Positions 90 to 43,689 of a stretch of DNA of 64,000 nucleotides are shown one piece after another. Source of the stretch: Candidatus Krumholzibacteriota bacterium (GTDB taxonomy: Bacteria; Krumholzibacteriota; Krumholzibacteriia; Krumholzibacteriales; Krumholzibacteriaceae); NCBI GenBank assembly GCA_016932415.1, contig JAFGCX010000007.1, forward strand, positions 1 through 64,000. The letters run 5' to 3'. Both the position numbers and the translations under genes were made by a program. Within the stretch, counting starts at the first letter, position 1; each line of letters begins with the position of its first letter. The notes beneath the pieces were generated by a model, which made no database searches, was not told where the DNA came from, and was given only the letters and a program-made list of their open reading frames with translations.

Positions 90-97
90 TTCGATCT

Positions 98-141
98 GCC
101 CTTGGGAGCGGCTGTGGTATTCGCCAGCCGCTCCCAAGGGC
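98..141. terminator. Bidirectional terminator hairpin between convergent genes
   Basis: A perfect 17-bp inverted repeat (98-114 with 125-141) closes a 10-nt loop. It lies between the stop of the left-edge gene and the 3' end of the converging transporter gene. There is no real T-run on either side, so this may act as an RNA-stabilising or factor-assisted terminator rather than a classical intrinsic one. Confidence 0.7.
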
Positions 142-198
142 GGCCGATACCGGTCGTCTCCCTGGAGACTGCCGGAGATCATTATCATGCGGGACATA

Positions 199-17299: not shown

Positions 17300-18937
17300 T
17301 CATTTAAATGAAAACCTGCTTTTGAAATGCCTCATGCTCAGGTCGCGTCCATATTCGATATTCACTCCAGGGACCATATCCCTGTTCTCCGAGATCACCC
17401 TTACTACCTCGGCGAGAGAAAAGAGGTCCTGATCCTCATATGCCAGCCTGGGAACAGCAGCCCTTATATAGTTGACGCGGGGATTGGGAGGAGATTCTGT
17501 GCCGTCCTTGTAGCTGCCGAAAGCATAAAGGCCCAGTTCACATACCCTGTGTCCGGCGATCAGGATCAACGCGGCCATCGAGATCCCCTTGAAATCATCA
17601 TCGACCGCCTTCATGTCGAAGAACCGATCGACATCGATATATACTGCGTGGCCACCGATCGGTCTTATCACGGGAATTCCCAGCTTGACCAGTTGAGCCC
17701 CGAACCTCTCCACCTGGCCGACCCTCGCGGCGAGGTATTCCTCCCGGACGACCGTTCGGAGTCCTTCACTGATCGCTTTGAGGTCCCTCCCGGTCAATCC
17801 TCCATATGTCGGATGCCCCTCGGCCATTATCTGGTAATCTGTAAGTCCCTCGGAAAAATCGGGGTATCTATCGGTAAAGAGGCTTTTACTCTTGACGATC
17901 AGGGCGCCTCCCATATTGACAAGTCCGTCTTTTTTAAGGCTTATGTGAAAACCGTCGACATGACTGAACATCTCGTGGACAATTTCCGTTATCGACCGGT
18001 CGGAATAAGCCTTTTCGTTCTTCTTGATAAACCAGGCATTTTCCGCAAATCTGCAAGCGTCGAAGAAAAACGGAGTCTTGTATTTTTTGGTGATCTTCCT
18101 TATCTCGGCTATATTCGCCATCGATACCGGCTGTCCTCCACCGGTATTGTTCGTTATGGTAAGATATACGAGTGGGACTCTCGCCCCATCGTTTGCCAGA
18201 AGGTTTTCCAGTTCCCCGACATCCATATTCCCGCGGAAAAGAAAACTCTCATCCTGGGCGAGATGTTCCCCGCAGGGCATATTGAGGGGTATCATCCCCT
18301 TGTTTTCGATATTTCCCTGGGTAGTGTCAAAATGAGAATTGCTCGGAATTATACTCAGCGCACCCGTCTGAGCGGCTTTTTCACCCGACATCGACACAAT
18401 CTTCGACTCGACTCTTTCCTTCAGTTCCCTCAGCAGGTCTCCGGAGAGATTACTCGCTGGGCTTTGCTCCCTTGAGCGCAGATGATCTTTAAGAACGGAA
18501 AAGAAAGCGTTCTCTGCCGCTCTGCCCTGGTGAAAAAGAAAAAGATTTTCCGATGATCCCCCGCGGGAATCATCATCGATCCATCCTGGTCCGAATGTCC
18601 GGCCTATCTGTTCCTTCAATTCGAAATAACCTTCGTTCGAGCCGTACGCTTCATCACCGGTCATCATCGCCGCCCACTGTTCTATCGTCATGGTGGTCGT
18701 CCCCGAATCCGAGAGAAGATCGCATCCCGGGATCATATCTGCCCTGAAAAGAAAGGTATTAAGGCCGGCTTCCTTTACGAGGATATCCCTTCTCTTCTCG
18801 AATTCATCGATTGAACAGTTTCTCAGCCGTACAGCTGCGTTTCTGTACGGGCGGGGACGGAAATACCGTGGCATTTCACTTTCCATGGAGAGACCATCTT
18901 TGAATTTCCCGATAAAATAATCAGTAATGTCAGACAT
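17300..18937 (-). CDS. tnaA: Tryptophanase (L-tryptophan indole-lyase) family enzyme
   Basis: A 545-residue PLP-dependent beta-eliminating lyase, cleaving an aromatic amino acid to its ring compound, pyruvate and ammonia. The PLP Lys is Lys336 in SLKKDGLVNMGG. Three positions separate tryptophanase from tyrosine phenol-lyase. Asp204 in FDTTQG matches tryptophanase. Leu468 in RVCELG replaces the phenol-binding Arg of the phenol-lyase. His537 in MRHFKS matches the tryptophanase His. All favour tryptophan. At about 545 residues it is longer than the usual 470, with extra segments near 120-132 and 155-195. Its ATG overlaps the trpS stop (TAATG), so the two are translationally coupled. Confidence 0.88.
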   Translation of the reverse strand: MSDITDYFIGKFKDGLSMESEMPRYFRPRPYRNAAVRLRNCSIDEFEKRRDILVKEAGLNTFLFRADMIPGCDLLSDSGTTTMTIEQWAAMMTGDEAYGSNEGYFELKEQIGRTFGPGWIDDDSRGGSSENLFLFHQGRAAENAFFSVLKDHLRSREQSPASNLSGDLLRELKERVESKIVSMSGEKAAQTGALSIIPSNSHFDTTQGNIENKGMIPLNMPCGEHLAQDESFLFRGNMDVGELENLLANDGARVPLVYLTITNNTGGGQPVSMANIAEIRKITKKYKTPFFFDACRFAENAWFIKKNEKAYSDRSITEIVHEMFSHVDGFHISLKKDGLVNMGGALIVKSKSLFTDRYPDFSEGLTDYQIMAEGHPTYGGLTGRDLKAISEGLRTVVREEYLAARVGQVERFGAQLVKLGIPVIRPIGGHAVYIDVDRFFDMKAVDDDFKGISMAALILIAGHRVCELGLYAFGSYKDGTESPPNPRVNYIRAAVPRLAYEDQDLFSLAEVVRVISENRDMVPGVNIEYGRDLSMRHFKSRFSFK

Positions 18938-20239: not shown

Positions 20240-21691
20240 TCACGCCAGTTCCTTCAGAACCGCGCCAAGAAGAATCCAGAATGTCTCCACTGACGGAATA
20301 TTCACCCTCTCTTCGGGAGAATGAGGGTGCTCTATCCATGGACCGAAGGAGACCATATCCATTCCGGGATACTTCTCTCCGATTATTCCACACTCGAGCC
20401 CCGCGTGGATCGCCTTCATCTCCGGTTCCTTGCCGAAGACATCCTTATGCACCTTTTTCACTACCTTGAGGATATTGGAATCAAGATTCGGCATCCAACC
20501 GGGATATGGATCGTTCTCTACCACGTCGGCACCTGCCAGGCGGGCTGTCGCCGAGATCCTGTCCCTCAGAGCCTGAAGAGCCGATTTGATCGATGACCTG
20601 GTAGAAGTCCCGATAGTCACCTCATTGCCGCCTGTCACTATCGTAGCAAGGTTATTCGATGTCTCCACCAGTCCTTCGATATCATAACTCATATTCTCGA
20701 CACCGTGCGGAAGAGCAAGGAGAAGCTGTATGAGCGTCTGCTGGCTCTTTTCATCCATCACCTTCGGATTGGCAGTATCGGACGGCTCGATGGTAACTGC
20801 GAGCTCTTTTTCCCTGCCGCCAAGCTCGATCCTGATCTTTTCGACCTCGTCCTCTATCAGGCTGGCAAGGTCGTCAACGGCCGTTTCGAGTACATTCAAC
20901 TGCGCGAACGCTTCGCGCGGGATCGCGTTTCTCTTGTTCCCGCCCTTTATCTCTGCCAGATGTACCGGTTGCGTCTTCATCGCGGTTCCCAGTATCCGCG
21001 TCAGAACCTTGATCGCGTTGCCGCGCTGTTCAATTATATCTATTCCTGAATGTCCTCCCCTGAGTCCCGACACCTTGACTGTATAACTTTTCGTGCCAGC
21101 CGGAGGATCGACCAGCGAGATGGGGAATTTGATCGTGGTGTCCCCGCCGCCGGCGCAACCGATATATGCCGCCCCGATCTCCTCGCTGTCAAGATTAAGC
21201 AGGGTCATACCCTTTATAAAACCTGGCTGAAGCTGAGCGGCGCCTGTAAGTCCTACCTCTTCATCGACAGTGGCAAGCACTTCGATAGGTCCGTGGACGA
21301 GATCTTCAGCTTCCGATACTGCCAGGCCGGCGGCAAGACCGATACCGTTATCAGCGCCTAGAGTCGTACCTATCGCGGTAAGCCATTCTCCCTCTACCTG
21401 GACCTTTATCGGATCCTTGAAAAAATCATGATCCACATCGGAATTCTTTTCTCCAACCATATCGAGATGTCCTTGGAGCACGATCGTCGGAGCTTTCTCG
21501 TGTCCTTTAGTAGCGGGGATCCTTATGACTATATTGCCTCTTTCATCTTTATCCGCTTCAAGCCCCTTGCTTTTGGCGAAGGAAAGAAAGTATTCTCCCA
21601 GTTGAGTCTCATTACCCGAACAATGCGGGATGCTGAGGATCTTTTCAAAATGCTTCCAGAGTTCTTTTGGTTCAAATCCGCCCAACGACAT
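20240..21691 (-). CDS. pepD: Aminoacyl-histidine dipeptidase PepD (M20)
   Basis: A 483-residue cytoplasmic zinc dipeptidase of family M20, splitting Xaa-His and other dipeptides. Metal-site motifs are visible: His75 in LQGHLDMVGE, Asp in LGADNGIGL, Glu-Glu in TVDEEVGLTGA, and the C-terminal His in IEHPHSPEERV. The M20 dimerisation domain lies in the middle (near 206-390). Length and order match bacterial PepD. It is transcribed alone. With the S46, S9 and C1A peptidases nearby, it would finish the breakdown of imported dipeptides. Confidence 0.94.
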   Translation of the reverse strand: MSLGGFEPKELWKHFEKILSIPHCSGNETQLGEYFLSFAKSKGLEADKDERGNIVIRIPATKGHEKAPTIVLQGHLDMVGEKNSDVDHDFFKDPIKVQVEGEWLTAIGTTLGADNGIGLAAGLAVSEAEDLVHGPIEVLATVDEEVGLTGAAQLQPGFIKGMTLLNLDSEEIGAAYIGCAGGGDTTIKFPISLVDPPAGTKSYTVKVSGLRGGHSGIDIIEQRGNAIKVLTRILGTAMKTQPVHLAEIKGGNKRNAIPREAFAQLNVLETAVDDLASLIEDEVEKIRIELGGREKELAVTIEPSDTANPKVMDEKSQQTLIQLLLALPHGVENMSYDIEGLVETSNNLATIVTGGNEVTIGTSTRSSIKSALQALRDRISATARLAGADVVENDPYPGWMPNLDSNILKVVKKVHKDVFGKEPEMKAIHAGLECGIIGEKYPGMDMVSFGPWIEHPHSPEERVNIPSVETFWILLGAVLKELA

Positions 21692-28890: not shown

Positions 28891-31800
28891 TCACCTGATG
28901 ACTGTTTTTCCAAGCCGGTTTGCCGCTGTCTTTATCGCCACGGCGGTATTTTCGAGAAGAGAGGCAGTGACCTTTATCCTTCTTTCCACTCCAGGCCTCG
29001 CGAAATAAAAGACAATGCCGCCGGACAGATCCAGACCTGCCTTCCCGGCTGCAAGAGCGTATATGCTGCCCTGGATCGAGCAGGCATCGAACCGGGCGTC
29101 AACCATGCCGGCATCCAGGTCATCGGTCTTGTAGTCGACGATCGTCCATATCCCGCCTTTTTCGAAAAGCAGATCTATCCTGCCATCGACGAAATATTCA
29201 GCCGGCCCCGGACACTCTCGCCCCTCAAACTCTCGACCGAAGAAGGGAAGCGTGAAAGGCACTTCGCGCAGTATAGTCCGGGCCGTTCCCGCTTCTTTCA
29301 GCACTGGCGACGACATCGCTTTTTCGACCAGGCCACCAAGCTCAGCCCCCGCCATACCGATTCCGAACCTCGAGGCGACCTGTCCGGCAAGCCCTGTTAT
29401 ATCTCCTTTTTCCGGCATACGCACCAGTTCCATTATCCTGTGAAAAGCAGACCCGAAAAGAAGAGGATCTGTCTTGTCACCTTCACCTGATCGCCCCGCC
29501 GGAAAAGCCGCTTCATGAGATAAAAAGCTTGATGGCGTGATAAATACTCTTTTCCTCTTTCCGGCAACGAGAGCACTGTCTGTCCTTTCCCTCCAACTGT
29601 TCCTCATCTCCTCTATCGATCGCCGGTTTTTGCTTTTCTTGTTCACAGGATCGGAAAAAGGCCGGGACCTGTAAGACAACTCGGGAAGGGACCCGGCGCT
29701 GACCCTTTTTATCAGACCGGCTGGACCGCAGGTACTTTTGACCCCGTTGCCATCCACCTGATCCTTTTCCACGGAATCTCCGCCATTTATACCATCCACG
29801 ATATACTTCTCGATCAGGCTGTAATAAGAATCTTTTCTGGCAGTTTCAGGTATGACAAGGATATCCCTCGCTCTGGTCGCCGCGACATACAGAAGCCTTA
29901 TCGATTCTGCTTCGTCTTTTAGCCTGTCCAGGGACAGTAACCGGGAAAAATCGCTCGTCTCCCATCCATTCCCCAGGTTTATGGAAAGTGCCTTTCCCCT
30001 TGAAATGATCGATTGAGGAGCCCTGTACCTTCTCTGCACGAGGTTGACGATGATCACGACGGGAAACTGCAACCCTTTCGACTTGTGTATGGTAAGAAGC
30101 CTTACGGCATCCTCGCTCTCATCCAGCGCCGGTGATTCCGACTCGGCGGCAGACACCTTTTCCTGGTCCCTCAGCCACCTCGCGAACGACCTGTAGGAAT
30201 ACCCCTTTTCACCGAATGTACGGGCGTTCTGGAGAGCTTTCTGTATATTCAGCGCCTGCTGGGCGCCATGGGGCCCAAGTACTGAAAGTTCGAGATATCC
30301 CGTTTCCCTGAGCAGATCGTCAAGAGTCCCGGCAGGCCCCCTGTCATTCCTGGCGAAGTGGAGTCTTCCAAGCAGCTGCAACGCCGACGCAAGATCTTCA
30401 AACTCCCCCTTTACGTCAGCCGGTTCTTCGAGATAATCGAATCTTCCGCCCCTTCTTTTATAAAGAAAAAGCTCCTCGTCACTGAAACCGAAAAGGGGAG
30501 AACGCAGGATCGAGACGATCGCCAGCGTGTCGTAAGGATCCTCGATCGCCCAGACTGCGGAGGCAAGGTCTCTTATTTCCTGTCTCGTGTAATAGAGTTT
30601 CCCACCTTCCACGATGTATGGGATGCCGGCATCGCGAAGAGGGTCCTCATAAAACTCGATACCGGTAGTTCCCCGGTACAGAAGAGCGATATCGCCATAC
30701 CTTACCGGCCGTATCGCCCCGTCCTCCGGATCGGTGATATCATGGTTTTTTTCGACAAGATCCTTTATAAAACGAGCTACCGTCTCCCCTTCAGCTTCCC
30801 TGATCTTATCGCTTGTCTCAAGTGCAGATCCGATCTCCAGAGAGATCACCGCTTCGCCCTCCCCTCTCCTCGCCGCATCGACAGGCTGGTACCTCGGCTG
30901 ATAAAATCCGCTCTCCGGCGGTCTGATCATACCGGAAAAGACTCCGTTCACCCATCCCGTTATTCCCGGAACGGATCTGAAATTCTGAAAGATGTCCAGG
31001 TGCTCTTCACTCGAGGTCAGCTTATGTTTAATCTTCTCATATATTTCAACGTCCGCTTTTCTGAAACGGTATATACTCTGCTTCGGGTCTCCCACGATGA
31101 ATAATCTGCCCTCTTCGAGTTCAACCGGACTTCCCGCCGGACCGGATGCTGATAGAAGTATTATTATCTCGGCCTGCAGCGGATCGGTATCCTGAAATTC
31201 ATCGACAAGGAAATATCGGTATTTATCCCTTAACGACCGGCGGGCGGAATCATCGTCAAGCAACTTGCGCGTGCATATCAACAGATCGTCGAAATCGAGA
31301 ATGCTTTCCTTTTCTTTCCGTTCATCGACAAAATCGATAAATCCTCCAAGCCACTGCTCCAGTCCCCGGCTGACCCTGTCCATGTAAGATCTCATCTCTG
31401 ACGACTGGATATCGCGCAATTCGCCGATGATCTCCTTCTGCCTGTCGCATGATTCACGGGTATCCCAGTTTTTGATCGCCCCGCTGTTTTTCGCCGGCAT
31501 GGCTATTCGCAGGAGAAACTCCTCAAGTTCACGGCCCGAAAGACCTTCGATCCCTTGCAGGTCGCCAAGAAACCTTTTTATGTTTATCGCGCCTCTGTCG
31601 ACCGGATCGTTGCAGCATGTATTGACGAGATGCTTCAATTCTGCCGCCCTTTCGATCACTCCCGCGGGAAACTCGCCGGGCTTTCTTCCGTTTTGCTCCT
31701 CCGGTGCCCCATTGTCATCCACTTCTCCATCGTCATAAAAAATGCCGGAGAGTACGCGGTCGGATCGGGATGAATAAAGATCAAAGGCGAGTGAGCGGAG

Positions 31801-32328
31801 CCTGTCTGTATTACCGCCGGAAAAGACCCAGCTCTGAATGAGCGGCTCGCGCGAAGATGCCGTCCGGGAAAGAAACTCATCCCACATCTCTTCAAGAAAA
31901 AGCAACCTGTCTATCTCATCTATCTGTCTGAAATCGGGATCGACCCCCGCTTCGATGGGATATTCCCTTAGAACCGATGAAGCAAAAGCATGTATCGTCG
32001 ATATCTGCGCGTTTTCAATATTTTCTCCCGCCGCGGCGAATCTCGCCCTCTCATCGGCCGATATTTCAGGCGAACAGGCCAGGAGGCTGAGTTTTTCCCT
32101 CAGCCGTGTTTTCATCTCGCCTGCCGCCTTCTCTGTGAACGTTATCGCTACTATCTCGCCGCACAAAGCTCTCCCCGTTTTTATCAGGGAAAGATACCTG
32201 TCGACGAGGATAGTAGTCTTGCCGGTTCCCGCTCCCGCTTCCACGCATATCGTCGAATCGAGATCGTTGACCGCTCTTACTCTCGCGTCATGGTCTACAA
32301 GTATAAAATCGTTATCAGTTCTCTTCAC
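28891..32328 (-). CDS. addA: AddA-type helicase-nuclease
   Basis: 1145 residues. It is the UvrD-like helicase subunit of a double-strand-break end-processing complex. Walker A is EAGAGTGKTT near residue 30; further helicase motifs are VAITFTEKAAGEM, DFDDLL, LVDEFQDTDPLQ, GDPKQSIYRFR and LLTIHKSKGLQF. A C-terminal PD-(D/E)XK nuclease domain carries the motif (IDLLF then TIVDYKTDD) near residue 1075. The GTG at 32328 has GAGGAAA upstream and overlaps the addB end by 14 nt. Both subunits having nucleases is the AddAB rather than the RecBCD pattern. Confidence 0.92.
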   Translation of the reverse strand: MKRTDNDFILVDHDARVRAVNDLDSTICVEAGAGTGKTTILVDRYLSLIKTGRALCGEIVAITFTEKAAGEMKTRLREKLSLLACSPEISADERARFAAAGENIENAQISTIHAFASSVLREYPIEAGVDPDFRQIDEIDRLLFLEEMWDEFLSRTASSREPLIQSWVFSGGNTDRLRSLAFDLYSSRSDRVLSGIFYDDGEVDDNGAPEEQNGRKPGEFPAGVIERAAELKHLVNTCCNDPVDRGAINIKRFLGDLQGIEGLSGRELEEFLLRIAMPAKNSGAIKNWDTRESCDRQKEIIGELRDIQSSEMRSYMDRVSRGLEQWLGGFIDFVDERKEKESILDFDDLLICTRKLLDDDSARRSLRDKYRYFLVDEFQDTDPLQAEIIILLSASGPAGSPVELEEGRLFIVGDPKQSIYRFRKADVEIYEKIKHKLTSSEEHLDIFQNFRSVPGITGWVNGVFSGMIRPPESGFYQPRYQPVDAARRGEGEAVISLEIGSALETSDKIREAEGETVARFIKDLVEKNHDITDPEDGAIRPVRYGDIALLYRGTTGIEFYEDPLRDAGIPYIVEGGKLYYTRQEIRDLASAVWAIEDPYDTLAIVSILRSPLFGFSDEELFLYKRRGGRFDYLEEPADVKGEFEDLASALQLLGRLHFARNDRGPAGTLDDLLRETGYLELSVLGPHGAQQALNIQKALQNARTFGEKGYSYRSFARWLRDQEKVSAAESESPALDESEDAVRLLTIHKSKGLQFPVVIIVNLVQRRYRAPQSIISRGKALSINLGNGWETSDFSRLLSLDRLKDEAESIRLLYVAATRARDILVIPETARKDSYYSLIEKYIVDGINGGDSVEKDQVDGNGVKSTCGPAGLIKRVSAGSLPELSYRSRPFSDPVNKKSKNRRSIEEMRNSWRERTDSALVAGKRKRVFITPSSFLSHEAAFPAGRSGEGDKTDPLLFGSAFHRIMELVRMPEKGDITGLAGQVASRFGIGMAGAELGGLVEKAMSSPVLKEAGTARTILREVPFTLPFFGREFEGRECPGPAEYFVDGRIDLLFEKGGIWTIVDYKTDDLDAGMVDARFDACSIQGSIYALAAGKAGLDLSGGIVFYFARPGVERRIKVTASLLENTAVAIKTAANRLGKTVIR

Positions 32329-35300
32329 TGCCGGGATTTCCTCTCAAAGCGATAAAATCGAGGCTCAGTCTGTCATGTTCACTCTTGCGCCTGAACAGCT
32401 TTTCTCTCGACGACAGGCAGGCTTCCTTAAGGCCGCAGAACCTGCATCTCTGACTGTCGGGATAAATAAAAAAATACCCCTTTTCTATCCCGTCAGTGAT
32501 CAGATCGACTGCTTTCGAGAAGCCCGGGGCTTTTTCATTCCAGTCTTCCCCGCTGAATCTGACGACCCCTCTTGCTTCAGGGGTGATCTGCTGATACCAG
32601 GCCACCCCCTGTTCGACAGGTGAAACGAGCAGTTTTGACGCTGCCTGAAGATAAACGGGAAGTTGCAGGCTCGTGCCTCCCTGGATATCGTCATCTGTAC
32701 CTTTCAGATTGCCGGTCTTATAGTCGATGACTCTGAAGCGGCCACCCCCGCCACTGTCGATCCTGTCTATCCTCCCGTGAAAGAATATTTCTCCCTTCCC
32801 CGTCCTGAACGACACCTTTTCGGAATCATCCCCGCCGAACGATGCTTCGTACCGGCAAGGGACCAGTCCATCCGATCTTCTCGCTTCATGTTCGAGATAT
32901 CTCGTGACAGACCTGATCATCCAGTCCTTTTCCATATCCCAGAATACCGGCAGACCTACCGGCCTGCTGTCCTCGTACCTTGCAAGCGCCTGGTCAATCG
33001 ATCCGCGTGCCGTGTCGAGAGCCGGAGCGATATTATTCCCCGAAAGAGGCAAATACTTTTTCTCTCCAAGTCTTCTGAAGACATCCTCGAGGAGAGAATG
33101 GACGAGCCTTCCACGTTCGAGCCGATCTATAGTAAGTATCCGTTCAGGTTCGGACACCGATTCGACGCCAAGCATCTTTTCAAGAAAATACGAAAAGGGG
33201 CATCTTGCCCAGCTTTCGAGAGAAGTCGCCGAAAATGACCACTTTTTCTCATCGAGGATCCTTTTCGATTCTTCCCGGGCCCGCTTCGAGCTGAATACGG
33301 CGTCATAGGGAGTCAGCCTGTCGTTCTGCCAGCGAGCTTTCGATAACATCAGTCCCCTTTTGAAAAACCGGTTCGATAATCCCTCCGCTCCCTTCACCCC
33401 TTCCGAGGCGACAAGAATGATATCGAACTCCCTCTCGCTGACCGGTTCGACTTCTTCAGTCGTCCTCATCCTTCCCGATATCCGTTTTTCCACACATTGG
33501 CCGCCTGATGAACCGCCAGAAAACTTCTCTTTCACGAAACGGATGAAGGAAGATCCAGCCCTTTCCCTTCCCGACCGACCCTCCACTCTGGGACGGCTGC
33601 ACACGACAAGTTCCGACGCTGATTCGATAATAAGATTGAAAAGCAGCACCTGTTCCTCGTACCTTTCACCTTTTTCTGGAAAAAAGGCATCCGGTGTGGC
33701 GATCTGCCCGATCACTCTTCTTTCGCCATCCTTGAGGAATGGATCCTGCCTTATCCTTCCCGGCAGGGAGCTCTGTGTCATCGAAGGTATGAATATTACT
33801 CTGAACCGAAGCCCTCTCGCCTCTACCGGAGTAAGCACGCTGATTCCTTCTTCCCTGACGCGCTCTCTTTTAACAAGAGCAGAATCGACAGCTTCAGTAA
33901 AAACGCGCAGGAAGAGTTTATAGGAAACAGCGCCTGATATCCTGTCCAGCCCGGCAAGACTTTCCACAAGTCCTTTTAACGCCTCGACACTTTCTGAATC
34001 ATCGAATAACTCCGATACCAGGGCCGACAACCGCGAAGAATGATCTGACCAGGATGAAGAAGCAGAAAAACGTCGCGAGGCAAGCGATATTTTTTCAAGC
34101 AGGCCACCGACGAATCTGACCGACGAGACTGATCCCGGTTTTCCGACTCCTCTTTTTTCCTCCCTGATCAATCTTTCCAGCAGTTCGGTGTTTTCGACGC
34201 CCCATCCCCTCTCGCCTGTCATCCCCGCTTCGGCGCTTTTTCTGATCCAGAGAGATACCGGGTCGGCAGCTCCGGCTCCGCAGGAAGACAGATCGAGGGG
34301 AGCCGCCGAAAGAAACTCCACGAGATCAGCCCTCCTCACCTCTCCCGCGAGAAGACCGGTGAGTTTCAACGCTCCCCTGGCCGCCGGATCATATTTCATT
34401 TCCACGCGGCCTGACAGCGTACACGGAATACGCGCTTCTTTAAAGATATCAACCAACAGATTCCTGTCTGTTTCCGGCAGCGCTATCACCGCCATCTCTT
34501 CAAACCTGACTGCCTCTTCACCGGCAAGCAAAAGAGCTCTTCTGGCAATCTCCCTGTATTCATCTTCGTCGTCGCGGACGCTGAGGATCTCCGCTGAGGG
34601 CAGGACTCTTTTATTGGCGCTGGAAAGCATCGACAGTTCGAACCCATCCCCGGTAGCTCTGTCTATCAGCCGCCTCGCGAACCTGTATTCCTTTCCATCC
34701 CCAAACGGGACAAAAAGAGTCGTCTCGCGTTTCATGGCTATCGCCGAAAGGACCTTCCACTGCTCCTCGTTAAAATCATAGAATCCATAAGCGATGAAAG
34801 GAACGTCATACCCTTCCAGGTTTATGACTTCAACCGAATCTATAAATTCAGAATGAATATCCCCGCCGGCATCGTCTATCATCTTCCTGTACTCAGCATA
34901 GGCCGGCAGAAGCGCCGCTATTCGCGGCAACTTTTTTTTCAGCCCCGGATCGGCGCAGATCCGAACGGCGCCCGGCCCCGAAAGGCCTGCCTCGGCAAAA
35001 CTTGTAAACGTCCTGAGTATCGCTGCCGCGAATCCCCTTGTAGCGGAAGTCTTCTCGAGATATCGGGGCAATACGCCGGAAGAAGCCATCCTCTCTATGA
35101 TTATTTCTCCGGCGAACGGAGGTAACGGATCGCTCGAATGCGGAGTCTTTTTTTCAGTGACTTTTTTTAAAAGGTCGGGGAATGTCATGAAATCGATATT
35201 GAAAAGTACCGGCGACTCTTCGGAGATCCTTCTCCTGAGATATTCTCCCAGCCTGTTTGAACCGGTAAGTATATCGATCCGAACCACTGCGTCGGTGGCC

Positions 35301-35377
35301 CTGATTCGAGTGATTTTATCTGTCAATTCTCTTTCCAGGAGAGAACCTTCGCCCGCGGCGATCACTTTTCCAAACAT
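32315..35377 (-). CDS. addB: AddB-type nuclease subunit with iron-sulfur cysteines
   Basis: 1020 residues. A degenerate helicase-like N-terminal region (no good Walker A) is followed by a C-terminal PD-(D/E)XK nuclease (HGRIDRI then RVIDYKTGNLKG). Cysteines that would hold a 4Fe-4S cluster flank the nuclease: one in SWARCPFSYF and three in CRFCGLKEAC. This is the AddB architecture; it pairs with AddA encoded directly downstream for recombinational repair. The overall sequence is divergent from Firmicutes AddB, so the name rests on architecture and neighbour. Confidence 0.88.
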   Translation of the reverse strand: MFGKVIAAGEGSLLERELTDKITRIRATDAVVRIDILTGSNRLGEYLRRRISEESPVLFNIDFMTFPDLLKKVTEKKTPHSSDPLPPFAGEIIIERMASSGVLPRYLEKTSATRGFAAAILRTFTSFAEAGLSGPGAVRICADPGLKKKLPRIAALLPAYAEYRKMIDDAGGDIHSEFIDSVEVINLEGYDVPFIAYGFYDFNEEQWKVLSAIAMKRETTLFVPFGDGKEYRFARRLIDRATGDGFELSMLSSANKRVLPSAEILSVRDDEDEYREIARRALLLAGEEAVRFEEMAVIALPETDRNLLVDIFKEARIPCTLSGRVEMKYDPAARGALKLTGLLAGEVRRADLVEFLSAAPLDLSSCGAGAADPVSLWIRKSAEAGMTGERGWGVENTELLERLIREEKRGVGKPGSVSSVRFVGGLLEKISLASRRFSASSSWSDHSSRLSALVSELFDDSESVEALKGLVESLAGLDRISGAVSYKLFLRVFTEAVDSALVKRERVREEGISVLTPVEARGLRFRVIFIPSMTQSSLPGRIRQDPFLKDGERRVIGQIATPDAFFPEKGERYEEQVLLFNLIIESASELVVCSRPRVEGRSGRERAGSSFIRFVKEKFSGGSSGGQCVEKRISGRMRTTEEVEPVSEREFDIILVASEGVKGAEGLSNRFFKRGLMLSKARWQNDRLTPYDAVFSSKRAREESKRILDEKKWSFSATSLESWARCPFSYFLEKMLGVESVSEPERILTIDRLERGRLVHSLLEDVFRRLGEKKYLPLSGNNIAPALDTARGSIDQALARYEDSRPVGLPVFWDMEKDWMIRSVTRYLEHEARRSDGLVPCRYEASFGGDDSEKVSFRTGKGEIFFHGRIDRIDSGGGGRFRVIDYKTGNLKGTDDDIQGGTSLQLPVYLQAASKLLVSPVEQGVAWYQQITPEARGVVRFSGEDWNEKAPGFSKAVDLITDGIEKGYFFIYPDSQRCRFCGLKEACLSSREKLFRRKSEHDRLSLDFIALRGNPGSEEN

Positions 35378-35482: not shown

Positions 35483-37690
35483 TCAACCGCTATCTGCCAT
35501 CCTTCTTCTCATTATGATCGCTGCCGTGAGGATCATGGCAAGGACCAGGCTCGTTATCACAGGCGCCGAGAAGAGAGGAACAGGTACAGGCTCGACGACA
35601 TGGATCTCCTGGACGCATGTGTCGTAGACCGTTCCTGTAATATCCCACGCTATTATGGTGAGGATGTCGTAATCGCAGATATCCGCCGCGCCGGCATTGA
35701 TGATGCCATATACATCAAGGCACTTTCCGCCAGGAACGCCGACGATCGTACCGCTCTGGCTGATCGCAGGTCCCACGACCCCCGTGCTCGTGATGTAATA
35801 GTTATAGTCTGTCGGGGCCGCGCATGGATCACCGTTGCATATCGAGAAGGGGATATACGCCGCCGTCAGGCCCTGCTCTACCAGATACAGGGTGTCCTGA
35901 AGTACATATAGCGCCGGAGGCGATTCGATTACCATCAGTTCCGAACATGAGAGCGAATACTGCTCGCCGCCCCCGTAAGTGTTCGGGTCCACGCAGTCTC
36001 CGCAATCGGGAGCGCATACTCCATTGACGTCGCAGTAGTTCATCTGCGCGCAGAGATTGTTCGTCGTTCCAATCTGGGCGTCGCACGGGACTGTTATGCA
36101 GACTTCGGATACATAGTAGCTCGCGTCGCCGACTATGAAACATTCGCCGTGGGAGAATGTCGTTCCGACTATCGGCCATCCGAGGTCGTCTGAATAATGG
36201 AGACAAAATGTGTCTTCGCCCGCGTTACAGGTAGATATCCACGAGAAGTTCGTCGCGGCGACTTCGTCGCAATAGGTCTCGCCCCTGATCACGTTCGCCG
36301 TAGTGTAGAAACCGAAGAAGAATCCCGGATCGCCTTCTTTCGAACATTCCCCGGCGACGATCTCGGGCCCTACGCGTCCGCGGATCCCCACGTCGCCCAT
36401 GTCGTGTCCGTCGGTCCCGAGAGAAGTGTACGTCGCCCCGGTAGAACTGACGAATGTCTTTCCGGTCTCCCATGGAGTATAGTTATCCATAGGGATCGGA
36501 TAGGCGTAACCGTTATTGAATTCGACTTCCAGATATATATCGTCACCCATCGTGAGAGGTATCGGAGTCGTCAGTTTGACGCTGTAGTACCCTTCTTCCG
36601 AAATCGATTTTACTATAGGGCCGGCAAGAAGGTTCGACAGGGAGGAACCGTTGAAATCGTCAAAGACCTTTACAGTATACGTTCCAGGAGCAGCCACTGC
36701 CCAGAAATCAACCGCGTATAGGTATTCGTCGGCGTTAGCCGGCGTCAGAACGATCATACCCCAGTCATCACCATCGCTGTAACCGACCGAAGTCCACCAA
36801 CCGACTTCGTCATAGTAGTAGATCGTCTCATTCGGATCGAATTCCTTGTAATCCGTTATGACGTTGGTGTTGCTTCCGATCTGAGCGTTCTCATACTCGA
36901 TATAGAAAAATCCATTGTCGCCCCATCCGGTGCCCCATGAATTTTTGACGATCCAGGCGCCGGCGCCGGAGCACATATCGTCATCCCAGCCTACGATAAG
37001 CACTCCATGGTTCGTGTTTTCCGTACCGACGTAAGTCATGCAGTAAGACCCGTCATATGTGCTGAAGCCGGGAAAACTCGCGTACATCGATGTATAGACC
37101 GGACCCCACGCCATAATAGCCGCTTTTATCGCGGCAACATCGTTCGGAATGACTCTCCACTCGGTCACCTGTTTTCCGAAAGAACAGGCGAAATTGTTGC
37201 ATGTCGAGTTCGGGCAGTCGCCGGGATAAGGATCGCATGTCTCATCGACCGATCCGAGAAGTGCAAGATAGTTCGTCGTCCACCATGCGTTTCCGCCATA
37301 GTTGCAATCCTGAGAGACCGGGTTGCATGACTGGATATTGAACTCGGAAAAATCATTCACGACACTTTCATTGATAAGGACTGTCGCTTCAAGGTTGCCT
37401 ATCGCGGCAAAACACCAGCAGGTGCCGTAGGGGTTCTGGTTCTTGACAGGAGTCACTCCGCCGAGAGCCCGCCAGTCCCATGTAGAGGCCAATCCCATGA
37501 ACCTGCCTGGAATAGCCTTGATGTGCGAGAGGTCCATCGGGGGCGGAACATACCCGAACTGCGGATCTCCACTGGATACTGCCGCAGGATTCTTCGGGGC
37601 GGCGACAGGCCTCTGCGCCAGGATCTCCGCCGATGTCATCGCGACAATGGCGAAGACCAGCAGAGAGAGAAGTAGCAATTTAGATTTCAT
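35483..37690 (-). CDS. Secreted papain-family (C1A) cysteine protease with C-terminal membrane anchor
   Basis: 735 residues. A signal peptide (1-25) precedes a propeptide-like stretch and a C1A protease core. The active site is complete: Gln85 in VKNQNPYG, Cys91 in GTCWCFAA, His in NTNHGVLIVGWDDD and Asn in KNSWGTGWGDNG. Next comes a beta-rich domain (about 300-440), then a cysteine-rich domain with many Cys. The C-terminus is P-V-P-L-F, about 22 hydrophobic residues and RRRM, the plan of a sorting signal (like IPTL- or PEP-CTERM) but not matching a motif I know. It would be exported and anchored, then perhaps processed at the surface. Confidence 0.9.
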   Translation of the reverse strand: MKSKLLLLSLLVFAIVAMTSAEILAQRPVAAPKNPAAVSSGDPQFGYVPPPMDLSHIKAIPGRFMGLASTWDWRALGGVTPVKNQNPYGTCWCFAAIGNLEATVLINESVVNDFSEFNIQSCNPVSQDCNYGGNAWWTTNYLALLGSVDETCDPYPGDCPNSTCNNFACSFGKQVTEWRVIPNDVAAIKAAIMAWGPVYTSMYASFPGFSTYDGSYCMTYVGTENTNHGVLIVGWDDDMCSGAGAWIVKNSWGTGWGDNGFFYIEYENAQIGSNTNVITDYKEFDPNETIYYYDEVGWWTSVGYSDGDDWGMIVLTPANADEYLYAVDFWAVAAPGTYTVKVFDDFNGSSLSNLLAGPIVKSISEEGYYSVKLTTPIPLTMGDDIYLEVEFNNGYAYPIPMDNYTPWETGKTFVSSTGATYTSLGTDGHDMGDVGIRGRVGPEIVAGECSKEGDPGFFFGFYTTANVIRGETYCDEVAATNFSWISTCNAGEDTFCLHYSDDLGWPIVGTTFSHGECFIVGDASYYVSEVCITVPCDAQIGTTNNLCAQMNYCDVNGVCAPDCGDCVDPNTYGGGEQYSLSCSELMVIESPPALYVLQDTLYLVEQGLTAAYIPFSICNGDPCAAPTDYNYYITSTGVVGPAISQSGTIVGVPGGKCLDVYGIINAGAADICDYDILTIIAWDITGTVYDTCVQEIHVVEPVPVPLFSAPVITSLVLAMILTAAIIMRRRMADSG

Positions 37691-38007: not shown

Positions 38008-40446
38008 TCAATCCCTCAGCCTGATATCGCCCTGTCTCATCGCTATCAGGGAGGCGAGACAGATCGAAGCGAGCTTTGACCTGGCCGAATCCCCCCTGGA
38101 AGTAAGGACTATCGGGACACCGGCTCCTACTATCGCGCCGCCGAGATAAGCGCCGGAAGATACCGTCAGCGATTTGTAGACGACATTTCCAGCCTCGATA
38201 TCAGGCATGAGCAGGATATCGGCGTTGCCGCGTATCTGGCCCGGGTACCTTTTTTCCATGGCCGAATGGGGAGACATCGCCACATCGAGAGAGAGAGGGC
38301 CCTCGACGATGCAATCGGTCCGACCCTTGTACTCTTCAGAGAGTTCAGCTGCAAGCATCGAGGACTCAACGCTCGGGCTGGCGACTTCGACTGCCGATAT
38401 TACAGCGACCTTCGGGACGGTTATATTGAGATATCCCGCGACGACAAGAGCGTTCTCGAGGATCTTCTTCTTTATATTCTGGCTGGGGCTCGGAATCAGA
38501 GCGGCATCGGTGACCATGAGAAGTTTCGGATAGCTCGGTATCTGAAATATCCCGACATGGCTGTATATATTCCCTTTTTTTATCCGCCCGCTTTTCTTCA
38601 GGTACTGCAGCGCCGCGCCCATGATCTCGGAAGTCTTCACTCCACCCTTCATGAGAAAATCGGCCGCGCCGCTGTCGAGCAGATCGACCGACTTCTGCAC
38701 CGGATCATTGGAATCGACAATGGTATAGTTATCGCCGTCTACCTTTATGTCGTAATCCCACGCGATCCTGTTGATCTCGTAGTAGTCTCCCACAAGGAGA
38801 AATTTAGCCACGGGATAGTGGCCTTCCTCATTCGCCTGCTTCGCCGCGGCGATCGCTTCCTCGTTTTCAGCCCCGACGATCGCGATCCTCGGAGTATGGT
38901 ATTTAGCGACCAGCGCCCTTGTAAGATAGATGACTTCGTCAAGACTGGTGACCGGAGCGTTCTCTTTCTTTCTCAGATGCGGCTGAGCGAAGATCTCGGT
39001 TTCAAAAAGATCCTCTTCATACTCCCTGAATTTGTTCAGCCTGTCGCGCTCCTCCACATAATCCTTGAGCGTCTCGGGCCTGAATCTCGCCCTCAGGAAT
39101 CCAGCCATCAGCGCTTCGTTCTCAAGCGACCCCGGGACGATGACGACCGGAAAGTACGGAAGAAGTTTTCTCTTGATAGCACCGGTGAATTCCGAAGACC
39201 TCGCCAGGCCGCCGGTGAGGATGACGAAGTCGACCGAACCCTCGACCGCGGAAAGTTTCATGACCGCTCCGGCAATATTCCGCGCCATAAAGTCGATGAC
39301 GAGATCTATCTTCTCCCTCTGCTGATCGAGCGCGCCGGTGTTCCTGAAGTGCAGAAGGGCCTTGAAATCATTAGTCCCGGCAAGATCTATCAGGCCGCCC
39401 TTGCGAAACAGATATTCCTTCAGTTCCGGGATACTGATCTCCCTCTGGTCGTACGCTTCAATCAGAAGGTCAAGCGGTATGTTACCGCACCTGTTGGCGC
39501 TCGGCACTCCCGAAAAAGCGTTTTCAAGATCGCAGACATCCCCGTCGCTGTGCCTCATCACCGACATGCCGCCGCCCATATGCGCTCCGACGGTAGTCAG
39601 ATCCCTGTCGAGCTTTCCCAGTATCGAACAGGCAAGCCTGTGCACGGCGTTCTGATTCAGATAGTGGCCGCCACTGCCGCTCCTCAGGAGTTTTCTTATC
39701 CCGGTGAGCCTTGCTCCCGTGCTCATCTCATCCGAACCGACAGGATCGGTCGTCGTGACAAGCAGATCCTGGCCACCGTTGAATCTCTCCCTGATCTTCA
39801 ATCCGATCGGTATCGCCATGTTGGACGCGTGATTTATCTTTGCCAGGTCCAGATCATGGACCATTCTTTCGTTGACCGAATACGTTCCGGTAGGAACAGG
39901 CCTGACGAATCCTCCCCTGCATGCTATTCCGGTAAGGTCTCCCCTGCCGATTCCGCGAGATTCGATCCACTCAATTATCGATGAAGTCCGCGCGTCTATA
40001 CTGTCCTTGAAATCGGGAGGGATATGGACTTCGTCCTCGCCCTCGAGGACCAGTCCCCTGAAAAGCGCCAGTTTCGTCGATGTCGAACCGGGATTCACGC
40101 AGAGTACCCGTTCACCCGCCGCCTCTGCCGGTATCTCCTTGAGTCCGTACAGAAATGAGATGATAGTCTCGGTCCCATGCTCTGATGAAAGGATGAAACC
40201 GACCAGGCGTGAAAAAATATTTCCCCAGACCTCTTCCCATTCTTCTATAAGATATGGAGGTTTCGATATGCAGACTATCCTGCTTATCAGGTCTATAAGG
40301 CCTCTTTCCGTCGTCACCCCGTTGTAATGGACGGTATTGATCGACTCGAGGATCTCTCTTTCGAGTTCGGGAAATCCCCCGATCTTTTTGATGATGTTTA
40401 CAAGTGAATTCAATTCCGCTTCAACGACGCTGAGTTCGAGATCCAT
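38008..40446 (-). CDS. Butyrate kinase-phosphate butyryltransferase fusion
   Basis: 812 residues in three parts. Residues 1-110 are a helical domain I do not recognise. Residues 113 to about 470 are a butyrate kinase of the acetate/sugar-kinase fold (VLCVNPGSTSTKLALF, INHASNMAIPI, VGAHMGGGMSV, FVILTGGLARS). Residues about 495-812 are a phosphate acetyl/butyryltransferase (PRIAIVGAENEEAI, FLMKGGVKTSEIMGA, GNADILLMPDIEAGN). Known enzymes are separate Buk and Ptb proteins converting acyl-CoA to acyl-phosphate and then acid plus ATP. A fusion would channel the acyl-phosphate. It is the last gene of a three-gene operon. Acyl-chain specificity is not visible. Confidence 0.9.
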   Translation of the reverse strand: MDLELSVVEAELNSLVNIIKKIGGFPELEREILESINTVHYNGVTTERGLIDLISRIVCISKPPYLIEEWEEVWGNIFSRLVGFILSSEHGTETIISFLYGLKEIPAEAAGERVLCVNPGSTSTKLALFRGLVLEGEDEVHIPPDFKDSIDARTSSIIEWIESRGIGRGDLTGIACRGGFVRPVPTGTYSVNERMVHDLDLAKINHASNMAIPIGLKIRERFNGGQDLLVTTTDPVGSDEMSTGARLTGIRKLLRSGSGGHYLNQNAVHRLACSILGKLDRDLTTVGAHMGGGMSVMRHSDGDVCDLENAFSGVPSANRCGNIPLDLLIEAYDQREISIPELKEYLFRKGGLIDLAGTNDFKALLHFRNTGALDQQREKIDLVIDFMARNIAGAVMKLSAVEGSVDFVILTGGLARSSEFTGAIKRKLLPYFPVVIVPGSLENEALMAGFLRARFRPETLKDYVEERDRLNKFREYEEDLFETEIFAQPHLRKKENAPVTSLDEVIYLTRALVAKYHTPRIAIVGAENEEAIAAAKQANEEGHYPVAKFLLVGDYYEINRIAWDYDIKVDGDNYTIVDSNDPVQKSVDLLDSGAADFLMKGGVKTSEIMGAALQYLKKSGRIKKGNIYSHVGIFQIPSYPKLLMVTDAALIPSPSQNIKKKILENALVVAGYLNITVPKVAVISAVEVASPSVESSMLAAELSEEYKGRTDCIVEGPLSLDVAMSPHSAMEKRYPGQIRGNADILLMPDIEAGNVVYKSLTVSSGAYLGGAIVGAGVPIVLTSRGDSARSKLASICLASLIAMRQGDIRLRD

Positions 40447-40469
40447 ATTGGCCTTCCATCCTGCTCCTG

Positions 40470-41612
40470 TTAAAGAAACTTCCTTATATTCTCCCTGTAC
40501 CAGGAGATCAGCCGGTCCGCATTCTCGACCATCCTGTCCCTGGCAGGTCCACTGGTAAAGATCCTCATATCTCTGAGATCAGAACCGCTGATCGAGGAAT
40601 CTCCAAGAAATACTCCTCCAAGCGCTCCGCCATACCCGTCATCGAGTCCGATCCCCGAAAGTTCCGCCCAGAGAAGTGTCCAGCCCCTGACGACATCGTT
40701 CATGTTGTATCCGCCGCCGCCTGTCGCGACGATAGCGGGAAACCTGTCATGCAGAGCTGAAACAGCTTCGATATAACCATTGTTCGTCAACCTCAGATGA
40801 GTCAACGGATCTGTCGCTACCGAATCGATCCCGAACTGTCCGACGATTATTTCAGGTCCGAACAGGCCGAGAGCGTCGAGAGCTATCTCCCTGAAAAGAA
40901 AATTGAAGATATCGTCATCAGCGTCGATATCGAGGGGAATATTGATATTGAATCCTTCGCCCCGGCCGCTTCCCGTCTCTTTCTCCGATCCACCCCAGGG
41001 AAAAAGAGTCTTGCCCGATTCATGGATCGAGATCGTAAGGACTTCGGGATCGGAGTAGAACGCCTCCTGGACCCCATCTCCGTGATGAGCGTCGATATCG
41101 ACGTACGCTACCCTCTTCCCCAGTCTTTTAAGTTCCTTTATCGCGATAACGATATCATTGACGTAACAGAACCCCGATGCCCTGTCGCTGTGGGCATGAT
41201 GGAATCCTCCCGTCGGATTGAAAGCGGCTCCCGCCCCATCGGCCACATACCTCGCCGCCCTCAGGGTCGCCGTTGCCGCCATCGTCGAAAAATCATAGAC
41301 TCCCTTGAACACCGGGTTTTCCATCGTTCCGAGCCCGTGATAGATCATATCTATCTCGATATCGAGCCCGCTGTCCGCCTTTTTGAGCATCTCAATGTAC
41401 TCTTTCGTATGAAAGGTCTCAAGAACCCCCGGTTCCGCTTCGGCGAATTCGTCGATAATTATCCCCTCACCCGAAAAAAGCCCTCTCTCCCTGCACATCT
41501 CGAATACTTTCGTCAGTCTTTCCGGTTTGAATGGATGATCGGGAGTAAACTGATACGCGCCCATCCGCGCCGGGTTCATGAAGACTGCCTTGATCTTTCC
41601 TTCAGGCGCCAT
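40470..41612 (-). CDS. AcuC-type (class I HDAC-like) deacetylase
   Basis: 380 residues, one zinc-dependent deacetylase domain. Motifs: HHAHSDRASGFCYVND (His138/139, the charge relay) and VDIDAHHGDGVQ (zinc ligands Asp174, His176). Further on are the third zinc-ligand Asp region in GQFGIDSVATDPL and the GGGGYN loop with the catalytic Tyr. In Bacillus, AcuC removes acetyl groups from acetyl-CoA synthetase that the GNAT enzyme AcuA adds. Here it sits between a CoA-transferase-GNAT fusion and the Buk-Ptb fusion, so deacylation of one of these enzymes is a strong inference. The ATG overlaps the upstream stop (TGATG); a GTG is one codon earlier. Confidence 0.9.
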   Translation of the reverse strand: MAPEGKIKAVFMNPARMGAYQFTPDHPFKPERLTKVFEMCRERGLFSGEGIIIDEFAEAEPGVLETFHTKEYIEMLKKADSGLDIEIDMIYHGLGTMENPVFKGVYDFSTMAATATLRAARYVADGAGAAFNPTGGFHHAHSDRASGFCYVNDIVIAIKELKRLGKRVAYVDIDAHHGDGVQEAFYSDPEVLTISIHESGKTLFPWGGSEKETGSGRGEGFNINIPLDIDADDDIFNFLFREIALDALGLFGPEIIVGQFGIDSVATDPLTHLRLTNNGYIEAVSALHDRFPAIVATGGGGYNMNDVVRGWTLLWAELSGIGLDDGYGGALGGVFLGDSSISGSDLRDMRIFTSGPARDRMVENADRLISWYRENIRKFL

Positions 41613-43477
41613 CACTTCCGATCCTCCGAAAAAGCCACATATACCGTGTACGATCCGTCATCGAGCTTTGTCCTGACCGGATAGCCGCATTTGTGAAAGA
41701 CGTCGAGCATCTTCCTGTTCTGGGAGAGGACCTCGGCCTTGAATCCTTCCAGACCCCGCTCCCTGGCGATATCGACCAGTTTTTTCATAAGGAATGAACC
41801 TATGCCCCGCCGCTGCCAGTCATCGCGCACGACGAAAGCGACTTCCGCCACGTTATCGGAAGGATCCATTTTAAATCCGCCTATCGCTATCATCTCTTCG
41901 TTGCCCGCTTCGCCGAGGAGGCCTACGATCGATATCTCCTCGCGAAAATCTATATTGACCATCGGCTGGACCTTCTCGTGGGGCATCGCCTTGATCCTGT
42001 TGAAAAACCTGAAATACATGGATTCATCGCTGAGGGAGTAAAAAAACTCCCGCTGAAGCGCCTCATCGGTCGGTTTCACCGGCCTGAAAAATATCTTCGC
42101 CCCTTCGAATACACGGGCTTCCTCGTACTGTTCCGGGTAGACGCTTCCCGGGATCGACATTGTCATCTGGTCCATGTGGACCAGGTTGCGTTTTTTCGCG
42201 TAGTCGAGGAGTTCATCGCGAAAAGCGGGATGGGCGATGCTTATCAGCGCCAGGGCCCTTTCCCTCAGGTTCTGGCCGTGCAGATTGACGATTCCGAATT
42301 CCGTCGCTATGTAGTGTACGTCTCCTCTCGACGTCACCACTCCCGCCCCCTGGTCGAGGAATGGCACTATTCTCGATACCGTATCGCCTTTGGCCGTTGA
42401 AGGTATCACGATGACCGGTTTACCCCCCTTCGACCTGGCGGCGCCACGTACGAAATCGACCTGCCCCCCTATCCCCGAATAAAAATACTCTCCTATCGAA
42501 TCGGCGCAGACCTGGCCGGTCAGATCCACCTGGATAGCGCCGTTCACCGAGATCATCTTGTCATTCTTCGCTATTATGAAAGGATCGTTCGTGTAATCGC
42601 ACGGATGGAACTCGATCAGAGGATTATCGTCGATAAAATCATAGAGCCGTTGCGATCCCATGCAGAAGGTCGCTATTATCTTTCCGTTATGAATCGTCTT
42701 TTTCCTGTTGGTGATCACTCCCGACTCGACGAGATCGATAATGCCATCTGAGAACATCTCGGTATGTATACCAAGATCTCTCTTGTTCTCTAGAAAGGAG
42801 AGGATGGCGTTCGGGATCATCCCGATCCCTGTCTGTATCGTGGCTCCATCCGTTATAAGCCTGGCGACATTTCGCCCGATCTTTTCCGCTACTTCATCGA
42901 CTTCGGGTGGAGTCCACGTCAGCAGAGGCATATCGCTCTCGATGATATAATCGATATCGTTGATATGGATAAAACAGTCGCCAAGCGCCCTCGGCATCTG
43001 CCTGTTGACTTCGGCGATGACCATCGAGGCTCCTTCGGCTCCCGCTTTCACTACATCGACCGAGACCCCGAGAGAGCAGAATCCGTAATTGTCAGGTGGT
43101 GCCACCTGGATAAAGGCCACGTCGATCTTCGGCCTGCCCGAACGGATCAACGCGGGCAGTTCTGAAAGAAATATCGGAGTATATTCAGCCCTTCCCTCAT
43201 TTACCGCGTCCCTGACGTTGGCGCCTATAAAGAACGCGTTCTGTTTGAACGGTCCTCTCATCACCGCTTCGGCGTATGGGGAAGTCCCGAGTTCTATAAG
43301 ATTGATCGTCTCGTGATCGGGGATCTGTGTCCCCTTTTCGATCAGCATCTTTATCAACCTCTGGGGTTCAGCGGCTCCCGACCCGATGAATATCCTGCTT
43401 CCCGCCTTGATGATCTTCAGGATCTCATCTATCGACTTGACCTTGCTTTCGTATTCTTTTGAACGATTATAGACCAC
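41612..43477 (-). CDS. Acetyl-CoA hydrolase/4-hydroxybutyrate CoA-transferase fused to a GNAT acetyltransferase
   Basis: 621 residues. About 1-430 is a class I CoA-transferase of the acetyl-CoA hydrolase/4-hydroxybutyrate CoA-transferase family; the catalytic Glu is in GIHTEMFSDGI and the CoA-binding part contains GIGGQVDFVRGAA. About 450-615 is a GNAT domain with the acetyl-CoA P-loop DWQRRGIGSFLM. Start is GTG at 43477, six bases after GGAGGAGG; no ATG fits. It is the first gene of the operon. The GNAT part could acetylate its own transferase domain or neighbours, opposed by the AcuC-type gene that follows. Substrate acids are unknown. Confidence 0.9.
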   Translation of the reverse strand: MVYNRSKEYESKVKSIDEILKIIKAGSRIFIGSGAAEPQRLIKMLIEKGTQIPDHETINLIELGTSPYAEAVMRGPFKQNAFFIGANVRDAVNEGRAEYTPIFLSELPALIRSGRPKIDVAFIQVAPPDNYGFCSLGVSVDVVKAGAEGASMVIAEVNRQMPRALGDCFIHINDIDYIIESDMPLLTWTPPEVDEVAEKIGRNVARLITDGATIQTGIGMIPNAILSFLENKRDLGIHTEMFSDGIIDLVESGVITNRKKTIHNGKIIATFCMGSQRLYDFIDDNPLIEFHPCDYTNDPFIIAKNDKMISVNGAIQVDLTGQVCADSIGEYFYSGIGGQVDFVRGAARSKGGKPVIVIPSTAKGDTVSRIVPFLDQGAGVVTSRGDVHYIATEFGIVNLHGQNLRERALALISIAHPAFRDELLDYAKKRNLVHMDQMTMSIPGSVYPEQYEEARVFEGAKIFFRPVKPTDEALQREFFYSLSDESMYFRFFNRIKAMPHEKVQPMVNIDFREEISIVGLLGEAGNEEMIAIGGFKMDPSDNVAEVAFVVRDDWQRRGIGSFLMKKLVDIARERGLEGFKAEVLSQNRKMLDVFHKCGYPVRTKLDDGSYTVYVAFSEDRK

Positions 43478-43689
43478 GACCAACCTCCTCCCGCAGGAAC
43501 CTCGCGGGACCGGGACACGACAGAACACTGTTATGATAATGAGACTGAGCGAATATTCAAGTAATACCGGAGATTTAGTGAAAAAAAAGAGCTTTTTCCA
43601 ACAATGACTGGAAATATCCTCTTTTTTTCCGTAAATTCAAGTCGGACAGCTCGAAATTCCCGTTGCTTCGATCAGGAAAGGAAGACCCG

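Follow-up and report, generated by a model that had tools for sequence, protein, structure and literature searches.

The locus studied here, from an uncultured Krumholzibacteria-type genome, raises the question of why enzymes that handle acyl-CoA and acyl-phosphates should be encoded in one operon with a GNAT acetyltransferase and an AcuC-type deacetylase. The preliminary description of the window, the stretch of 64,000 nucleotides that was analysed, had proposed a self-contained acyl-activation module whose flux is controlled by reversible lysine acylation.

Gene structure and domain content of the operon

The three minus-strand genes (Table 1) are all present as described. The ATG of gene 2 at 41612 overlaps the TGA of gene 1, giving the reported TGATG, and genes 2 and 3 are separated by 23 nt. 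The GTG at 43477, already chosen as the start of gene 1, is the likelier one, with a strong GGAGGAGG motif ahead of it; residue numbers for gene 1 follow the 638-codon ORF. Domain searches bear out the assigned domains, namely PF02550/PF13336 and PF00583 (gene 1), PF00850 (gene 2), and acetate/butyrate kinase together with PTA_PTB (gene 3). A single promoter-like match (43560-43533) lies directly upstream of the operon, in a promoter/terminator scan whose counts are weakly above those of shuffled sequences. The plus-strand ORF 38266-39984 (572 aa), antisense to the kinase gene, was taken as spurious.

Table 1. Location of the operon genes, their domains, and the triple-fusion loci.
Feature	Location	Strand	Remarks
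Gene 1	41612..43528	minus	family I CoA-transferase (AbfT/But-like) fused to Pat-type GNAT; likely start GTG 43477
CoA-transferase domain of gene 1	ORF residues about 23-450		638-codon ORF numbering
GNAT domain of gene 1	41612..42142 (residues about 463-638)	minus	predicted lysine acyltransferase ('writer')
Gene 2	40470..41615	minus	AcuC/class I (HDLP-like) Zn-dependent deacetylase ('eraser'); start probably ATG 41612
Gene 3	38008..40446	minus	butyrate kinase-phosphotransbutyrylase fusion with N-terminal helical domain; 812 aa
N-terminal domain of gene 3	40102..40446	minus	about 110 aa, predicted all-helical; no match to a known family or fold
Butyrate/acetate-kinase-like domain of gene 3	39034..40116	minus	active-site motifs intact
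Phosphotransbutyrylase domain of gene 3	38011..38946	minus	
Triple fusion L127	5135-8161		G003, same class-level group as the window
Triple fusion L049	1848-4291		Myxococcales; cut by contig end
Triple fusion L200			Planctomycetota group
Triple fusion L221			Myxococcota group

Other genes of the window are recorded here for context. A papain-family protease with a lectin-like domain, probably secreted, is encoded in the same orientation, 317 nt beyond the downstream end of the operon (35483-37690). Within 28891-35377, the gene for a UvrD-type helicase/nuclease (1145 aa) overlaps that for a PD-(D/E)XK nuclease protein (1020 aa), which gives the two the look of an AddAB-type recombination pair. 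The window also harbors amino-acid catabolism genes, a beta-eliminating lyase (17300-18937) and an M20 peptidase (20240-21691), and these would be consistent with acyl-CoA substrates of the branched or aromatic kind.

The closest solved structures of the CoA-transferase domain of gene 1 are 4-hydroxybutyrate/butyryl CoA-transferases (9vag, 3eh7, 2oas, 3gk7). In the alignment its Glu257 falls on Glu238 of 3gk7, taken here as the AbfT catalytic residue, and a GxG loop is present as GIG at 234-236, so that both features expected of a family I CoA-transferase of the AbfT/But type are found. The top PDB matches of the GNAT domain are lysine acetyltransferases: 9it0/9isq, 4nxy/4u5y, and 4ava/4orf. 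The latter pair is Mycobacterium Pat, to which the NCBIfam match of the domain falls below the model cut-off; 4nxy/4u5y, deposited under the name acyl-CoA synthetase, is presumably the GNAT domain of Streptomyces lividans PatA. The counterpart of Glu562 in the alignment is residue 123 of 4nxy, presumably the catalytic Glu; Glu562 and a Q/RxxGxG/A motif (here Q-R-R-G-I-G) together provide the characteristics of a Pat-type GNAT. The domain is accordingly of the writer type, a predicted lysine acetyltransferase. Of 109 fusions of this kind, 97 have an intact transferase Glu and 96 an intact GNAT Glu; CoA-transferases devoid of a GNAT domain keep the Glu in 40 of 41 cases.

The best matches of the gene 2 product are HDLP/class I enzymes. 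All active-site residues are present (H139, H140, D173, D175, H177, D264, Y303), corresponding to the HH, D-x-D-x-H, D and Y residues of class I/AcuC Zn deacetylases, and the catalytic residues are kept in 80 of 80 sequences compared. In a quick tree that included one class II sequence and no known polyamine enzyme, the protein groups with Bacillus-type AcuC (SH-aLRT 82). The window genome encodes a second, distant deacetylase of the HDAC family on another contig. No sirtuin was found in this genome or its same-genus relative, although one is encoded in 12 of the 25 genomes of the order. For the window genome this leaves gene 2 and the distant HDAC as the deacetylases found. The deacetylase subfamily also has a second recurrent, unexplained context: a related deacetylase precedes the genes for a DUF1844 protein and a DegP-type protease of the trypsin/PDZ kind (L022:7215-9981), and genes sized like this pair follow related deacetylases in many deltaproteobacterial loci.

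Gene 3 combines a butyrate kinase (Buk) with a phosphotransbutyrylase (Ptb), and the motifs of both are intact in the window protein. The ASKHA acetate/butyrate kinase motifs, NPGSTSTK and the Arg, Asp, His, Arg and Glu sites, are all present, their roles being assigned from established knowledge of acetate kinases. The kinase passes the NCBIfam cut-offs PRK03011.1-5 and falls below that of TIGR02707. The Ptb domain scores above the Pfam PTA_PTB cut-off, and its best NCBIfam model, TIGR02706, yields 246 bits against a cut-off of 410.5; by these scores the domain is homologous to phosphotransbutyrylase and stays below the equivalog score. An additional domain of approximately 110 residues before the kinase had been missed in the preliminary description. 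It is conserved among relatives through the order, with invariant L15, P63, L66, W70, W74 and N76, and is predicted to be all-helical (pLDDT 86.8). It has no match in Pfam, and none with an E-value below 1 among solved folds searched with Foldseek. A role of the domain as acetyl-lysine reader was considered and set aside as unsupported: many bromodomains are listed by Foldseek, none with an E-value below 1, and with TM-scores below 0.5.

Distribution of the gene arrangement

The three-gene order is not unique to this genome; uniqueness is what the preliminary description would have held against its proposal. A count of its recurrence, as suggested there, shows that 21 of the 25 genomes in the taxonomic order share the arrangement, including genomes in which a contig ends within a neighbouring gene; G020, G023 and G027, three assemblies that are incomplete or fragmented, lie outside the set that can be judged for the operon. 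The record titles within the order are Krumholzibacteriota/Krumholzibacteriia, plus one Latescibacteria. One further genome, G014, consists of a single contig and has no Buk-Ptb matches. Its first locus reads HDAC, NDP-forming acyl-CoA synthetase (ACD), CoA-transferase-GNAT, and its second ACD, CoA-transferase-GNAT; the ACDs adjoining the fusions are single-chain. ACD was rejected as a genome-wide replacement of Ptb-Buk, and the swap is positional only, since ATP-grasp_5 proteins also occur in the other genomes of the order.

Beyond the order, a scan of genomes for the deacetylase found pairs of CoA-transferase-GNAT and HDAC, in both gene orders, in records titled Chloroflexota (L011), Planctomycetota (L014), Chitinivibrionales (L037), Myxococcales (L049), and Deltaproteobacteria (L015, L025, L027, L031). 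ACD occupies the third slot in G014, L015 and L037, and is found within the cluster in L015, L025 and L037. The broader unit is a CoA-transferase-GNAT protein together with a deacetylase, and its third gene can instead encode an NDP-forming acyl-CoA synthetase.

We surveyed four phylum-level groups, comparing the neighbourhoods of 80 CoA-transferase-GNAT genes and 40 GNAT-less CoA-transferase genes. A partner was defined as HDAC, ACD or Buk/Ptb, either fused or encoded in the same orientation no more than 400 bp away. Any such partner accompanies 20 of the 80 fusions and none of the 40 GNAT-less genes (Fisher p = 1.6e-4), ACD alone 16 of 80 versus 0 of 40 (p = 0.0012), and HDAC alone, outside the window's order, 4 of 80 versus 0 of 40 (p = 0.30, not significant); these p-values are indicative only, as the genomes are related and partly chosen by score, and independence is overstated. 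Most of the sampled fusions have none of these partners, and the low count for HDAC rules out its adjacency as a general trait of CoA-transferase-GNAT fusions in this sample. The label of having an HDAC neighbour changes at least 5 times on the HDAC tree and 7 times on the CoA-transferase-GNAT tree, with gains and losses indistinguishable. Plasmid records contain no good full-length homologue of the fusion among the matches listed.

The exact trio occurs outside the order in only two of the genomes surveyed, L201 and L202 of a Myxococcota-type group, where it is rearranged as Buk-Ptb, CoA-transferase-GNAT, HDAC, with genes overlapping or nearly so. Since their CoA-transferase-GNAT and HDAC proteins are sisters of the window's clade in the respective trees, the trio probably arose once and was later rearranged. 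The Buk-Ptb proteins of these loci (L201:4778-7135, L202:1675-4044) have lost the Asn of NPGSTSTK, the Arg and the Glu and have kept the Ptb motifs; on account of the altered motifs the kinase half may be dead, possibly a pseudo-kinase. Four further loci (L204, L205, L207, L208) have Buk-Ptb, ACD and CoA-transferase-GNAT in one run. In L205 (747-8833) the run encloses an ACAS-like AMP-binding protein whose usual P-loop motif is missing, such that several common routes of acyl-CoA formation are joined in one cluster. In L129 (4336-11564), ACD and CoA-transferase-GNAT are followed by a histidine kinase and a sigma-54 response regulator.

At four loci CoA-transferase, GNAT and HDAC are encoded in a single ORF (Table 1), and these triple fusions form one clade (SH-aLRT 100). 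All four carry Asp in place of the transferase Glu and a changed GxG loop, and all retain the GNAT Glu; in the three complete proteins every deacetylase residue is present. Loss of the transferase site with writer and eraser kept is as expected if the transferase became an acyl-CoA sensor or a scaffold. Degenerate transferase domains are a minority among the CoA-transferase-GNAT fusions, including all triple fusions, and the domain of the window looks intact.

Proposed function and alternative explanations

We consider it somewhat favoured, with a probability of roughly 0.55, that the operon is an AcuA/AcuC-like control unit of reversible lysine acylation attached to the interconversion of acyl-CoA and acid, its targets and activities being predicted from sequence. 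The operon would combine control and catalysis in one unit that acts on short- or branched-chain acyl-CoA. Judged by homology, the CoA-transferase and Ptb-Buk would interconvert acyl-CoA, acyl-phosphate and free acid, with exchange of CoA or gain of ATP. When acyl-CoA is abundant, the fused GNAT would acylate a lysine on at least one of the enzymes converting acyl-CoA or acid, namely enzymes encoded in the operon and possibly the AMP-forming acyl-CoA synthetase Acs in trans. The deacetylase would reverse the acylation, and flux would thereby follow the acyl-CoA pool. The CoA-transferase domain would place the writer at this pool, like the acyl-CoA synthetase domain in type I/II Pat. Because the partnership recurs in several phyla, acid metabolism is probably switched by reversible protein acylation. 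The proposal of a reversible-acylation module gains partial support from a writer-type GNAT, an eraser-type AcuC, an adjoining acyl-CoA/acyl-phosphate enzyme, recurrence across phyla, and the fusions. Its description as self-contained is doubtful, since Acs homologues are encoded elsewhere in all 25 genomes.

These homologues, over the family cut-off in 17 of the genomes, with six Acs matches in the window genome itself, are also what speaks for an alternative, namely that GNAT and AcuC control Acs and its relatives in trans, with the CoA-transferase and Buk-Ptb being co-expressed alternative routes. AcuC adjoins acs or a GNAT/acetate-CoA ligase fusion in annotated genomes, and an ACAS-like protein stands inside the L205 cluster. 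However, the window operon is devoid of Acs, and it is ACD and Buk-Ptb that accompany the writer, alone or paired with the eraser (a linkage, which does not identify targets); we regard this explanation as unlikely. Less probable still is damage control, in which acyl-CoA and acyl-phosphates acylate lysines chemically, the deacetylase cleans the enzymes, and the activity of the GNAT is minor or unrelated. In Syntrophomonas, beta-oxidation enzymes are documented to be acylated non-enzymatically by reactive acyl-CoA (PMC9676460), and the deacetylase adjoins a source of acyl-phosphate and acyl-CoA, yet the catalytic Glu of the GNAT is widely kept among the fusions, and the triple fusions lose transferase residues while retaining writer and eraser.

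There is a slim chance that a small molecule, either an amine or a polyamine, is the substrate of both the GNAT and the deacetylase in an acid-fermentation operon. Both superfamilies contain small-molecule enzymes, and polyamine deacetylases form one bacterial cluster (PMC11532494), but the best solved relatives of both domains are protein-modifying enzymes, and the deacetylase groups with AcuC and not with the single class II sequence included. Chance co-transcription of unrelated genes is strongly disfavoured by the conserved synteny: the order is kept in 21 genomes, the trio reappears rearranged in a second group, and pairs and fusions recur.

An extension of the preferred reading, that of a reversible-acylation control unit, is put forward tentatively and with the odds somewhat against it. 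The CoA-transferase-GNAT proteins would be an undescribed class of bacterial lysine acyltransferases that sense and handle acyl-CoA via the transferase domain; one lineage would have merged writer, eraser and a non-catalytic CoA-transferase sensor into a self-reversing acylation machine; and the window operon would embody the same regulatory principle with the enzyme still active. If the proposals hold, reversible lysine acylation would govern, beyond AMP-forming acyl-CoA synthetases, the routes through CoA-transferase and Ptb-Buk that determine how much ATP fermentation and syntrophy yield. A CoA-transferase class would be added to the known types of bacterial lysine acetyltransferases, and the single-chain CoA-transferase-GNAT-deacetylase would offer a compact system for the question of how writer and eraser avoid a futile cycle.

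Comparison with known systems

In Bacillus, AcsA is inactivated through acetylation by AcuA, a modification that AcuC removes (PMC11255334, PMC8556138); acetyl-phosphate is usable as donor by AcuA (PMC11255334). The window operon resembles acuABC/AcsA in that a GNAT writer and an AcuC class I eraser are encoded together and tied to acyl-CoA formation, and a GNAT lysine acetyltransferase and an AcuC-type deacetylase, as looked for in an AcuABC system, are both recognizable by their residues and matches. In contrast to Bacillus, the writer is fused to a CoA-transferase, and the partners are CoA-transferase and Buk-Ptb instead of AcsA and AcuB: the three-gene operon contains no AcuB gene, and whereas an AcuABC system has its acsA target gene adjacent and divergent, no Acs gene is found in 38008-43528 or the flanking genes, Acs being encoded on another contig.

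Type I/II Pat (Pat of E. coli and Salmonella, PatA of Streptomyces) likewise consists of a Pat-type GNAT fused to an acyl-CoA-handling domain. This domain is an NDP-forming acyl-CoA synthetase, catalytically dead and regulatory (PMC8556138), whereas the window protein carries a family I CoA-transferase of PF02550/PF13336. The CoA-transferase-GNAT architecture is absent from the five GNAT types of the same review (PMC8556138). An actinobacterial AcuC adjoining a bifunctional GNAT/acetate-CoA ligase (for example on a Tsukamurella plasmid, L272) is similar in pairing AcuC with a fused acyl-CoA enzyme and GNAT, but a ligase takes the place of the CoA-transferase, and there is no Ptb-Buk in the short stretch read.

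The catalytic components have known counterparts as well. With AbfT and But (4-hydroxybutyrate and butyryl-CoA:acetate CoA-transferases) gene 1 shares the whole transferase domain, the catalytic Glu and the GxG loop, and differs by its C-terminal GNAT. A CoA-transferase of Syntrophomonas wolfei, Swol_1014, bears acetyl- or butyryl-lysine (PMC9676460). The clostridial Ptb-Buk pathway comprises the same two enzyme families with intact motifs, whereas the single-chain fusion, the new N-terminal domain and the linkage to writer and eraser genes are features of gene 3.

The statement that no described system has this set of genes agrees with the open-licence literature searched, in which we found neither the gene set nor CoA-transferase-GNAT fusions described as lysine acetyltransferases. 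The module is real and conserved, and combines known parts in an arrangement not found described in that literature. By analogy, it would work like the AcuA/AcuC and Pat/AcuC control units, while belonging to neither by gene content. Its novelty lies mostly in the triple fusion and the CoA-transferase-GNAT class, with the fusion of writer and eraser as the most novel element.
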